64,000 nt of DNA, from positions 1 to 64,000 of the forward strand of contig JAJFKP010000024.1 in NCBI GenBank assembly GCA_021773135.1. Reading direction: 5' to 3'. The stretch comes from Woeseiaceae bacterium. Its GTDB lineage: Bacteria; Pseudomonadota; Gammaproteobacteria; Steroidobacterales; Woeseiaceae. Shown here one piece after another: positions 6,486 through 34,893 of the stretch (position 1 is its first letter; each line of letters starts with the position of its first letter). The notes under the pieces are model-generated. The model was not told the origin of the DNA and ran no database searches. It was given only the letters and a program-made list of their open reading frames with translations. A program made the position numbers and the translations under genes.

Positions 6486-7789
6486 GCGGCAACCTCGGCC
6501 GGATCATCGACGATGCTACGCCCGCCATTCCTGACCATGTACTCGAATTCGTGGCGATAGTGCTTAAGGAAACTTTGCACGGGCCAGGCGGCGGCATCCC
6601 CAAGGGCACAAATGGTATGCCCTTCTATCTTGTTGGCGACATCGACCAGCTTGTCGAGATCTTCTTCTTTGCCGTCACCGTCAATTATTCTGCACAGCAT
6701 GCGATACAGCCAGCCGGTCCCTTCACGACACGGGGTGCACTGGCCACAGGACTCCGCCATATAAAACCTGGAAATTCGCCGCAGCACCTTAACCATGCAG
6801 GTCGTTTCGTCCATCACCATGACGGCGCCGGTACCGAAAGAAGAGCCCGCTTCCTGCAAGGACGTGTAATCCATGGTGCAGTTCATGATGACATCACCGG
6901 GCATCACTGGAACAGAAGACCCCCCGGGTATGACTGCCTTCAGTTTGCGACCGCCAAGCACGCCGCCGCACAGCTCAAGCAGGTCTTTAAACGCAATACC
7001 CATCGGCAGCTCAAAGTTGCCAGGCTTTTCGACATGTCCGGACACCGAGAACTGCGCGGTTCCGCCGGAGCCTTCCGGACCGAGGTCAGCAAACCATTTT
7101 CCGCCGTTGCGAATAATCGCGGGTACGCTTGCAAGGCTCTGGGTATTGTTGATTGTTGTCGGCTTGCCGTAGAGGCCGAAATTGGCAGGGAAAGGTGGCT
7201 TGAAACGCGGTTTTCCCTGCTTACCTTCCAGCGACTCGAGTAGCGCAGTTTCTTCGCCGCAAATATAGGCGCCTGCACCGACGAAAGTGTAGATGTCAAT
7301 ATCGATGCCAGAACCATTGATGTTGGTGCCCAACAGCCCTGCTGCGTAGGCCTCAACCAGAGCAGCCTCGAATCGCGGCACAGGCTCGTCGATAAATTCT
7401 CCGCGGATGTAATTGTAAGCGACTGTTGCACCCATCGAGTACGCAGCGATCGCCATCCCTTCAATTAAAGAATGCGGGTTATAGCGCAGCACCTCACGGT
7501 CATGACAGGTGCCAGGTTCACTCTCGTCGGAATTGCAAACGAGGTATTTCTGTCCGGGCGCCGAACGCGGCATGAAGCTCCATTTGAGACCAGTCGGGAA
7601 CCCGGCCCCGCCGCGACCGCGCAAACCGGATGCTTTGACCTCATCGATGACATCATCCGGGGTCATTTCACCGGCAAGAATCTTGCGCCAGGCCTTGTAG
7701 CCGTCAAGCTTTTCATACGTCGCCATCGACCACGGCTGCTCTTCGCCGAACGTGTTGAAACAAACGAGATTCTGTCTCATGTCACTCAT
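6482..7789 (-). CDS. nuoF: NADH-quinone oxidoreductase subunit F (NADH/FMN binding)
   Basis: Flavoprotein subunit of complex I that oxidises NADH through FMN and cluster N3. The glycine-rich nucleotide motif [13 protein letters not shown] is near residue 55. The cluster motif [15 protein letters not shown] lies near residue 345, with the fourth Cys in [12 protein letters not shown]. The 435 residues match the family. It overlaps nuoE and nuoG by 4 bases each. Numerous long antisense ORFs here are shadows. Confidence 0.97.
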
Positions 7790-8277
7790 TCGAGGCCATC
7801 CAGAATCTCGTCAACTTTTTCCGTGGTGAGATTTTCGTGATATTTGTGATCGACCATCATCATCGGTGCACCGCAGCAAGCCGCCAGGCATTCTTCTTCC
7901 CGTTTCAGATAAATTCGACCGTCATCGGTACTCTCACCAAGCCTCGTATCGAGCTTACGCTCAACATGCTCAACCAGTTCTTCTGCGCCACGCAGCATGC
8001 AGGAGACATTGGTACATATTGCAACATTGTGCCGACCGACGGGCTTGGTCTGGAACATGGAATAAAATGTGGCTACTTCGTAAACCTGTATCGTCGGCAG
8101 GTTCAGGTAATCGGCAACGCCATTCATTAACTCCGCCGTCAGGAAACCGTCGTTCTCGTGCTGCACCGCGTGCAGCGCACCAATAACGGCGGAACGCTGC
8201 CGGTCTTCCGGAAACCGTGCCTTCCAGCGTTCGATTTCCTCGCGTACGTGTGCGGAAAGAATATCAGCGTCACTCAT
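7786..8277 (-). CDS. nuoE: NADH-quinone oxidoreductase subunit E (2Fe-2S)
   Basis: Thioredoxin-fold 2Fe-2S subunit (cluster N1a) that pairs with NuoF. The four ligands are visible as CTNVSC (near residue 87) and CLAACCGAP (near residue 130), the spacing expected of the family. The protein is 163 residues. It overlaps nuoD and nuoF by 4 bases. Confidence 0.96.
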
Positions 8278-11183: not shown

Positions 11184-11660
11184 CACCCCTGCAAGCAATT
11201 GAAAAGTAACTTTTTCAGTCTCAGAGAAGGCGGACGGATCGCCAATGCTCACGTGCGCGCTGAGAGTAGCTCCCTTATCGGCCGATAAGCCAATCCGTCC
11301 GCACCGCCGCGATGAACAACGCCAGGCTGGTGCGGATTGATCTTAAGTGCCGAAGACCGGAGCCGCAGCGTCCACTTGCCGGATGTCCGCATCGCCAAAG
11401 TTGAACCACTCCTGGCCGGTGCGGATTGATCTTGAGCGCCGATGGCCGGACTCGAACCCAATCCGCCCGCACTGCCAATATGGTCTGCTCCAGACCGGTG
11501 CGGATTGATCTTTAGCGCCCAAGCCTGGCAACGCGCCGATGATCCTGCCGGGAAGTCGGTCTCCGCACCGCCAAAATGAACCACCCTAGGCTGGTGCGGA
11601 TTGATCTTGAGTGCCGAAGACCGGAGCCGTAGCGTTCATTTCTGCCGGATGTCCCTATCA

Positions 11661-11708
11661 GCACCATAAAAAAAGGCCAGCCCAAAGGCTAACCTATTAT
11701 TATGGTGC
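11661..11708 (-). terminator. Hairpin 3 of the tRNA-Leu array (imperfect)
   Basis: Two 22-base arms around a CAAA loop. The central AGGCCAGCC/GGCTAACCT and the outer GCACCAT/ATGGTGC pair, with mismatches in the A/T-rich middle. It follows the second tRNA 3'-end copy and looks like a degraded version of hairpin 2. Confidence 0.55.
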
Positions 11709-11828
11709 CGATGGCCGGACTCGAACCCAATCCGCCCGCACCGCCAATATGAACCACCCCAGGCTGGTGCGGATTGATCTTGAGTGCCGAAGACCGGAGC
11801 CATAGCGTTGATTTCTGCCGGATGTCCG

Positions 11829-11886
11829 CATCGGCACCATTAAAAAAGGCCAGCCTTTAGGCTGACCTTTTTTAATGGTGCCGATG
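11829..11886 (-). terminator. Hairpin 2 of the tRNA-Leu array
   Basis: A 27-base inverted repeat with one mismatch and a 4-base loop. It includes GGCCAGCC/GGCTGACC and A6/T6 tracts, so it has the form of a rho-independent terminator. The outer part of the stem is the tRNA acceptor 3' strand with CCA paired to an inverted copy of itself. Confidence 0.7.
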
Positions 11887-12006
11887 GCCGGACTCGAACC
11901 CAATCCGCCCTCACTGCCAATATGGTCTGCCCCAGACCGGTGCGGATTGATCTTTAGCGCCCAAGCCTGGCAACGCGCCGATGATCCTGCCGGGAAGTCG
12001 GTCTCC

Positions 12007-12067
12007 GCACCAATAATGAAAAAGGGGGTACGACCTAAAGTCGTACCCCCTTTTTCATTATTGGTGC
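12007..12067 (-). terminator. Long perfect hairpin at the 3' end of tRNA-Leu
   Basis: A perfect 28-base stem with a 5-base loop, containing GGGGGTACGAC/GTCGTACCCCC flanked by A5/T5. The stem begins inside the tRNA 3' end, so GCACCA of the tRNA pairs with TGGTGC beyond the loop. It probably terminates the glmM-tpiA-secG-tRNA transcript and could also influence 3' maturation. Confidence 0.75.
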
Positions 12068-12146
12068 CGATGGCCGGACTCGAACCGGCACAGCTTTCGC
12101 CACTGCCCCCTCAAGACAGCGTGTCTACCAATTCCACCACATCGGC
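12062..12146 (-). tRNA. leuU: tRNA-Leu (anticodon GAG)
   Basis: An 85-base class II tRNA with encoded CCA. Acceptor arms GCCGATG/CATCGGC pair fully. The anticodon arm CTGTC-TTGAGGG-GGCAG gives anticodon GAG, a variable arm follows, and the T arm is GCCGGTTCGAGTCCGGC. It lies 21 bases after the secG stop, as leuU follows secG in E. coli, and is probably processed from the secG transcript. Confidence 0.96.
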
Positions 12147-33991: not shown

Positions 33992-34354
33992 GGGGGCGAA
34001 TTGGATTCGACGTGGGTTGCGAAGCTCCGAGTGCATGCCGAGGGACAGATCACCTCGTAAAACCAGCTGTAAACCTTATAGTTGCCAACGACGACAACTA
34101 CGCGCTAGCTGCTTAAAAACCAGTCTTAGCGTCTTCTGCCCGGCTCGTGCTTGTGCGGCTGGATCCCAGGAGTCACTTACACAAGACCGCGGCAAGGGCA
34201 TGTTCAGGGCCTGAACCGTTAAATCCTTACTGAACTGGTTACAGGTTTTCCCTGCCCGTCGGGTAGCCCGTAATGAGATTAAAGACGGAATAAGCCTGTC
34301 GAGCTCGTAGTGGAGGGCTTGCGGACGCGGGTTCGATCCCCGCCGCCTCCACCA
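33992..34354 (+). ncRNA. ssrA: Transfer-messenger RNA (tmRNA)
   Basis: A 363-base one-piece tmRNA. The 5' end GGGGGCGAATTGGATTCGACG pairs with the 3' end CGCCTCC-ACCA, and the T arm GCGGGTTCGATCCCCGC is intact. The tag reading frame is at 34084-34116 and encodes ANDDNYALAA followed by TAA, differing from the E. coli tag by Asp for Glu at position 4. It lies downstream of smpB. Confidence 0.97.
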
Positions 34355-34426: not shown

Positions 34427-34693
34427 GGGTTCACAAAATGCGCCAGCATTTTGGACGCACGCAGTGCGCCCGAAGGGCGAGGATCGCGATTAAGCGATCC
34501 GAGTCAATCCCCGCCTGGTTCCTAACGCCTCAGGCAAAGCCAATCGGGGGGACTAAAGATCAATCCGCACCGATCGGCAGCGCGTTGGCAGAAACTGCAA
34601 ACGGATTGGGGTTCACAAAATGCGCCAGCATTTTGGACGCACGCAGTGCGCGCGAAGGGCGAGGATCACGATTAAGCGATCTGAGTCAATCCC
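34427..34693 (+). repeat. 182-bp-spaced direct repeats after tmRNA, with a core shared with the tRNA-Leu array
   Basis: An approximately 85-base sequence at 34427-34512 recurs at 34609-34693 with only a few changes. It contains small hairpins such as AAAATGCGCCAGCATTTT and GGATCGCGATTAAGCGATCC. Between the copies, 34553-34572 reads CTAAAGATCAATCCGCACCG, identical to the minus strand of the tRNA-Leu array at 11496-11515 and 11938-11957. In both places CGGATTGGG follows 25-35 bases later and can pair with AATCCG. No protein gene is credible from 34390 to 34893; the remainder (34694-34893) shows nothing recognisable. Confidence 0.8.
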
Positions 34694-34893
34694 GACCTGA
34701 CACCCACCTTCAACATCATTCGAAATAGCTGCCTCCGGGCACGCTTTTATTGTTTGCTGGCAACCCGCGTAGCAAAGTCGCTGTTCTTGTCATAAGGCAA
34801 TAACTGACCCGTTTTCATCTCGCATACGATGAACTATGGTAGCCAGATTGCCTAAAGGCCTCACCCCTGTCTGCCGATACCCCATGTGTGGTT

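Follow-up and report, generated by a model that had tools for sequence, protein, structure and literature searches.

A tandem array of tRNA-Leu 3′ tails in a Woeseiaceae genome and a dispersed hairpin element at its joints

The window, a stretch of 64,000 nucleotides from a Woeseiaceae bacterium of marine sediment, holds an array of repeated tRNA 3′ ends behind the gene for tRNA-Leu(GAG). The intact unit comprises the tRNA tail from the T-loop onwards, a terminator palindrome, a spacer and a module termed element E. This hairpin is dispersed, and duplications repeatedly have their breakpoint at its base. We give roughly even chances to the reading that the array consists of tandem duplications of this unit, seeded by E via template switching, and we regard the tail copies as passengers, not functional RNA.

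The array behind tRNA-Leu(GAG) and its counterparts

The features of the array are listed below in window coordinates, together with the E copy behind the tmRNA gene.

12062–12146, minus strand: tRNA-Leu(GAG), source of the tail (ARAGORN; Rfam RF00005)
12004–12070, minus strand: terminator palindrome 1, 31-nt arms, extending into the tRNA 3′ GCACCA (repeat search, 97% complementary; fold −54.0 kcal/mol, z −13.4)
11899–11960, minus strand: element E copy 1, complete (pattern; covariance model match 11899–11969)
11876–11900, minus strand: tail copy, 25 nt, abutting the right base of E copy 1 (repeat and tail search)
11829–11886, minus strand: terminator palindrome 2, taking in 11 nt of the tRNA tail (28-nt arms, 96% complementary; −47.9 kcal/mol, z −13.8)
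11726–11787, minus strand: element E copy 2, complete (covariance model match 11726–11796)
11703–11727, minus strand: tail copy, 25 nt (repeat and tail search)
11657–11713, minus strand: terminator palindrome 3 (26-nt arms, 81% complementary; −35.6 kcal/mol, z −8.4)
11551–11616 (outer limits approximate), minus strand: element E copy 3, without 3′ arm; 5′ arm 11593–11606 (pattern)
11457–11518, minus strand: element E copy 4, complete (covariance model match 11457–11527)
11438–11458, minus strand: tail copy, 21 nt, without terminator, passing directly into the next E (repeat and tail search)
11376–11441 (outer limits approximate), minus strand: element E copy 5, degenerate 3′ arm; 5′ arm 11418–11431 (pattern)
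11289–11350, minus strand: element E copy 6, the final one before nuoA, without a following tail (covariance model match 11289–11359)
34541–34610, plus strand: element E behind tmRNA (33992–34354), locus L057 (covariance model)

Three extra tails of 25, 25 and 21 nt follow the tRNA at steps of 186, 173 and 269 bp; the two 25-nt copies (11876–11900, 11703–11727) are identical, and each extra tail is preceded by an E module. ARAGORN, Rfam and the repeat search thus confirm the tail copies and steps described in the first-pass annotation, and chance is an inadequate explanation, as a reversed query gave no match over 114 tRNA genes. The terminator-like hairpins described there correspond to the three palindromes, with fold z scores of −13.4, −13.8 and −8.4. 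Its “alternating modules” likewise exist as a repeated module, the identity of which had been overlooked, namely the genome-wide element E. Six E 5′ arms are present in the array, four of them in copies complete enough for the covariance model.

The palindrome stems vary from unit to unit and are near-perfect in two of the three. A generic terminator scan of the array region returned two sites, one on each strand, against 1.1 expected, which is near expectation and on its own lends no support to terminators; we take it that palindrome arms swallowing the T-run escape the generic rule. Promoter-like sites in the same region numbered zero, with 0.6 expected. The palindromes at 12004–12070 of the window and in loci L042 and L043 reach the tRNA 3′ end, so that the CCA could pair with the downstream arm; this pairing may be relevant to 3′ maturation. 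On the minus strand the gene order is presumably tpiA, secG, tRNA-Leu(GAG), array and nuoA, the names of the protein genes being our assignment from the open reading frames, and the frames between 4.3 and 17.6 kb resemble what we take to be nuo genes, secG, tpiA, glmM, folP and ftsH.

With a 20-nt query and at most three mismatches, tail copies were found downstream of 12 of 114 tRNA genes (4/42 in the relative G017, 5/37 in G020 and 3/35 in the source genome; reversed control without match, genes near contig ends searched in part). E-type arrays also stand behind tRNA-Asn, tRNA-Met, tRNA-Lys, tmRNA and 5S rRNA. Allowing four mismatches, 28 of the 169 stable-RNA genes in the examined loci have tail copies, a figure that is no population rate because the set was partly chosen for holding E or a tail, and that includes some four-mismatch rows resembling chance (e.g. 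L026). The periods of these 28 rows lie entirely within 173–189 bp in 15 cases and at 205–220 bp in four, the other nine being different or mixed (130–410 bp). The 205–220 bp rows belong to tRNA-Leu(GAG), tRNA-Leu(CAG) and tRNA-Val of G020 and to a tRNA-Leu of G013. They represent a second array type that is without direct E and has its joint likewise at GGTTC (L049, L179 and L226 in G020, L042 in G013).

Among the relatives' Leu loci listed, those of G017 and G005 have neither E nor a copy, that of G004 has E without a copy, and those of G008 and G001 have E with one or two copies; the source genome also combines E with copies. Tail copies without direct E occur at the Leu loci of G013 (three) and G020 (one). 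The first-pass annotation had held that an array lacking both counterparts in close relatives and transcripts would point to a one-off duplication without function; similar arrays are present in relatives, and the array is not a one-off. At the tmRNA locus of the window, a different module occurs on both sides of E as direct copies (34427–34517 and 34609–34699). The module at 34427–34517 forms multiple hairpins and ends in AATCCCCGCC, which resembles the tmRNA tail.

Element E: structure, distribution and placement

Element E is ~60 nt long, with conserved pairing arms that flank a hypervariable loop of ~25 nt, and its consensus reads CACTAAAGATCAATCCGCACC, ~25 variable nucleotides, GCGGGCGGATTGG. 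It was first seen when the array of the source genome, used as a query, gave further short matches elsewhere that reduced to E. Over 83 distinct copies the arms are nearly invariant and the loop variable, with conservation dropping sharply outside the element; a conserved unpaired flank, CACTAAAGAT, is found on the 5′ side only. The length is almost constant: measured from AAAG through ATTG, 133 of 134 copies span 53–56 nt. GATCAATCCGCACC occurs 36 times in the source genome at up to one mismatch, compared to zero times in the reversed control.

Stem pairing is reflected in covariation. Ten of 86 copies, which were not chosen for variants or pairing and were collected with a detector allowing two mismatches per arm, show two-sided change with pairing kept, versus eight with one-sided change; all ten concern one base pair (C-G to G-C). 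The hand-picked alignment A1 contains 12 covarying cells at three pairs, versus 2.2 ± 1.2 in shuffles, although its 40 sequences (37 of 88 copies plus three stem variants) lean the counts towards variants. Loops from different loci mostly lack similarity (≥75% identity in 10 of 7833 pairs) and therefore offer little indication that E spread recently; on this basis, recent copying from one locus to another was set aside. One of the ten similar pairs, L106/L110, also shares some flank similarity. No Rfam family reached its gathering score on E in the window, nothing on E or such arrays appeared among the papers listed (in part the ten best of 92 and of 142), and GATCAATCCGCACC occurs in none of the open-licence papers searched, a scope outside which the older tyrT work lies. 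We treat E as a repeat family for which no description was found, and the array itself as belonging to a known kind.

At an E-value of ≤1e-4 the covariance model detects E in 33 of the 119 relatives. Across the order, 46 of 396 genomes have a match at this threshold, and the other 350 give none under these strict filters. The E-bearing families are f1, taken as Woeseiaceae, and three others (f9, f15 and f16). At an E-value of ≤0.01, 44 copies were counted in the source genome, 10 in G017 and 39 in G020. A pattern scan of public genomes returned 50 stretches, all labelled Woeseia, Woeseiaceae, Gammaproteobacteria or Proteobacteria. A phage origin of E was considered and rejected, the exact pattern scan of viral contigs having given zero matches.

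Copies of E cluster at tRNA and tmRNA genes: 9 of 10 are near such a gene in G017 (0.1 expected), 21 of 39 in G020 (0.3 expected) and 13 of 44 in the source genome (0.33 expected), where for the latter two “near” denotes up to 800 nt downstream or 300 nt upstream of the gene. The gene list comprised tRNAs and two tmRNAs but no rRNA, and as copies in one array are not independent, it should be noted that the RNA genes involved number 3, 12 and 8, respectively. In the source genome the remaining 31 copies lie away from any tRNA or tmRNA on the list. In G017, nine copies lie behind three tRNA genes (Asn four, Met three, Met two) and the tenth behind 5S rRNA.

The first E starts 92–105 nt past the tRNA end in four of four cases for tRNA-Leu(GAG), four of five for tRNA-Met and five of six for tRNA-Asn, the odd Met and Asn cases being at 46 and 165 nt. 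Behind tmRNA it starts at 89 nt in one instance and 196 nt in a second, and behind other tRNAs at 35 to 170 nt. The near-fixed distance holds despite almost unrelated loops (mean identity 0.29–0.35) and spacers (0.17–0.39). In addition, six tRNAs carry E in the opposite orientation directly at their 3′ end. In locus L171 of G020 (7400–8230), inverted and direct copies tile the gaps between tRNA-Leu, tRNA-Lys and tRNA-His genes, with E directly at the 3′ end of tRNA-Lys and tRNA-His. By crude ORF calling for 95 copies, 14 fall within an ORF and 28 in the gap between convergent ORFs; no shared theme was seen by eye in the protein genes upstream of E. The length, distance, loop, ORF-context and joint counts derive from a detector requiring paired arms (≤1 mismatch), and are hence uninformative on pairing.

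Duplication joints and the origin of the array

The right flank of E is a direct copy of upstream DNA in 53 of 126 copies (45 distinct joints; donors sought within 330 bp upstream), and in 34 of these 53 the copy begins exactly at the E stem base, with zero offset. The other 73 are without such a duplication. Copies of E cut by locus ends were dropped, leaving 126 of 134 for the joint analysis and 110 for orientation, and copies within one array are not independent in the joint counts. The duplicated DNA was direct in 47 of 110 cases and inverted in 0–2 of 110, with 8 of 110 for a control stretch. The joint mostly falls at ATTG| of the stem base, usually at a GG. Of 21 distinct copies, 15 begin with GG, for which the background is 7.5%, and copies of E without a duplication are followed by GG in 47 of 59 cases as well, so that GG is common to both sides of the joint. 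Copies usually start in the T-loop, even at loci without a direct E, but their exact start varies by a few nucleotides between tRNAs, unlike a fixed crossover.

The far end of the copy is variable. In 37 distinct cases the copy begins no more than 3 nt from the stem base. Of these copies, 18 continue into E, 19 break off ahead of it and none terminates at the start of E. E consequently did not enter with a long target-site duplication, and a MITE or transposon with a target-site duplication flanking E was ruled out; rather, the base of E marks the point at which upstream DNA was inserted or up to which it was repeated. Donors are diverse and include loci without a tRNA or tmRNA gene (L027, L035, L047, L060, L062, L065 and L172). 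In L232 of G020 (1628–1758), an antisense tRNA-Gln half is joined to the E base (38 nt, 87% identical). Taken together, the non-tRNA donors and the antisense half imply that RNA templating is not needed, and they argue against templated insertion of RNA 3′ ends as a general rule. Some copies in tRNA arrays do stop at CCA (L006, L032) or near it (L046), and others at the terminator end (L223, L012, L038, L010, L090).

In the template-switching reading, DNA synthesis would stall at the E hairpin, and the end ..ATTGG would re-anneal on an upstream GG, in tRNA genes mostly the one before the T-loop. The re-annealed end would then copy the tail, the terminator and sometimes E again, and copy number would subsequently be altered by unequal exchange. 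The outcome that has presumably been kept is a row of terminators between tRNA and nuoA, which may be of use, and the tail copies as such need no function. We favour template switching because it accounts for a joint that is fixed at the base of the stem, for GG as shared micro-homology and for the variable far end, as well as for the diverse donors, the long palindromic terminators and the two-sided change in the E stem. According to PMC8794818, such a process makes perfect stems. The coexistence of states at the Leu locus (no E and no copy, E without copy, E with copies) also counts in its favour. Of the options offered by the first-pass annotation, a recombination by-product is the best supported, given breakpoints at the hairpin base and arrays that vary among relatives. 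Conversely, the conserved 5′ flank, constant length and near-fixed distance of E are not predicted by template switching. Tail copies that lack a direct E and share the GGTTC joint would rather be predicted by a recombinase at the T-loop, several copies finish with CCA or where the terminator ends, as expected of RNA templating, and the 73 of 126 E without duplication also count against it. The conservation of E and the T-loop joint without direct E thus fall outside what template switching explains. That it was probably at work here is concluded from sequence comparison.

The main rival holds that E is the recognition or cleavage site of a putative recombination or mobile system acting at stable-RNA 3′ ends, guided by the hairpin much as HUH transposases or integrases are, with the tails as its joints. 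If lineage-specific, such a system would explain both the near-fixed E distance and the T-loop joint, the latter being the usual copy start even without direct E. It would also suit the exactness of the joint in 34 of 53 cases, the clustering of E at tRNA and tmRNA genes where only 0.1–0.33 copies are expected, and the six tRNAs with opposite-orientation E directly at their 3′ end. Still, we consider it rather unlikely: the two E-bearing genomes searched gave no Y1 (RAYT-type) transposase at an E-value of ≤0.001, the 11 loci with Y1 genes in four other genomes are free of E, similarity between E loops is rare (≥75% in 10 of 7833 pairs) and suggests little recent spread, copy starts vary by several nucleotides, and viral contigs contain no exact E pattern. 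A specific form of the idea, to which we assign a slightly smaller chance, takes E as a cis site ~95 nt behind stable-RNA 3′ ends that is cut at the hairpin base and joined to T-loops or CCA ends, the E. coli tyrT array arising by a sister process that involves a different hairpin module. If true, Woeseiaceae and some related families possess an as yet undescribed recombination system that builds tail arrays.

Two functional readings were also weighed. E and the repeated terminators may have been selected as an insulator or termination system against read-through from stable-RNA genes into the next operon, which would agree with the near-fixed E distance behind tRNA-Leu, tRNA-Met and tRNA-Asn despite almost unrelated spacers, with terminator stems that differ between window units while two of three are near-perfect, and with the position of the array on a single strand between tRNA-Leu and nuoA. 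We judge this improbable, however, as 350 of 396 genomes of the order have no E match at an E-value of ≤1e-4, some relatives have no array at the Leu locus, and 31 of the 44 E copies in the source genome lie away from the listed tRNA and tmRNA genes. Least credible, in our estimate very improbable and unsupported here, is that transcripts of the units yield small RNAs by processing, or that the units act as decoys of RNase P/Z or of CCA enzymes, comparable to RtT RNA. The analogy with RtT and the retention of mature tRNA 3′ sequence in the tail copies would speak for it, yet the first two extra tails sit behind palindromic terminators, the region has no promoter-like site (0.6 expected) and no RtT match, and arrays that follow the same tRNA have little in common in their spacers and loops.

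Comparison with known systems

Integrase attachment sites in tRNA T-loops also duplicate the tRNA tail from the T-loop; the E arrays differ in their ~180-bp unit, their variable joint and the presence of E-base joints in loci without tRNA genes. With REP/REPIN sequences and their RAYT transposases, E has in common that it forms dispersed hairpins, some in inverted pairs, but its 25-nt hypervariable loop and one-sided conserved 5′ flank set it apart. A RAYT-driven REP was rejected, as the E-bearing G017 and G020 gave no PF01797 match at an E-value of ≤0.001; RAYT is present in G000, G001, G003 and G014, the 11 RAYT loci of which are without E. Quasi-palindrome template-switch mutations (PMC8794818) likewise yield perfect stems and paired changes at hairpins; the E arrays differ in consisting mostly of direct templated duplications, one end of which is anchored at a conserved repeat.

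The closest known array is that of E. coli tyrT/RtT, which has a different module. The tyrT/tyrV repeats (RtT RNA, RF00391; rttR, tpr) likewise consist of ~178-bp units in tandem, each carrying the tRNA 3′ end, to which the steps of 186, 173 and 269 bp correspond. The E. coli copies start at AATCC, also in the T-loop, and their spacer is a chain of small hairpins. The likeness to tyrT drawn in the first-pass annotation therefore stands for the architecture of ~178-bp tail repeats and fails for the spacer, which is unrelated in the window unit (z 0.2). Membership in RtT was rejected for the Woeseiaceae loci L001, L038 and L203, which are without an RF00391 match at an E-value of ≤1, compared to four matches of 132.9–137.5 bits in the E. 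coli region; the sub-threshold matches of these three loci to other Rfam families all lie below the cut-offs of those families.

A tyrT-like hairpin chain does occur behind the tRNA-Arg of G017 (178, 178 and 177 bp), and also behind a Glu, a Ser and two Arg tRNAs in relatives. The unit of the G017 tRNA-Arg reaches z 4.0 against E. coli tyrT (0 of 300 shuffles). The chain lies between GTTCGA and AATCC in L203 (the G017 tRNA-Arg, TCG), L184, L230, L128 and L227; the latter four are related to L203 (z 6.8–11.9), and all five are more weakly similar to E. coli (z 1.7–4.0).

To our knowledge, the E. coli tyrT repeats have been an isolated oddity. Tail arrays recur behind several tRNAs, tmRNA and 5S rRNA within one family, with at least three spacer modules, often with similar periods and with the T-loop as the usual joint. 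Owing to this recurrence, the origin of tail arrays becomes testable by comparison.
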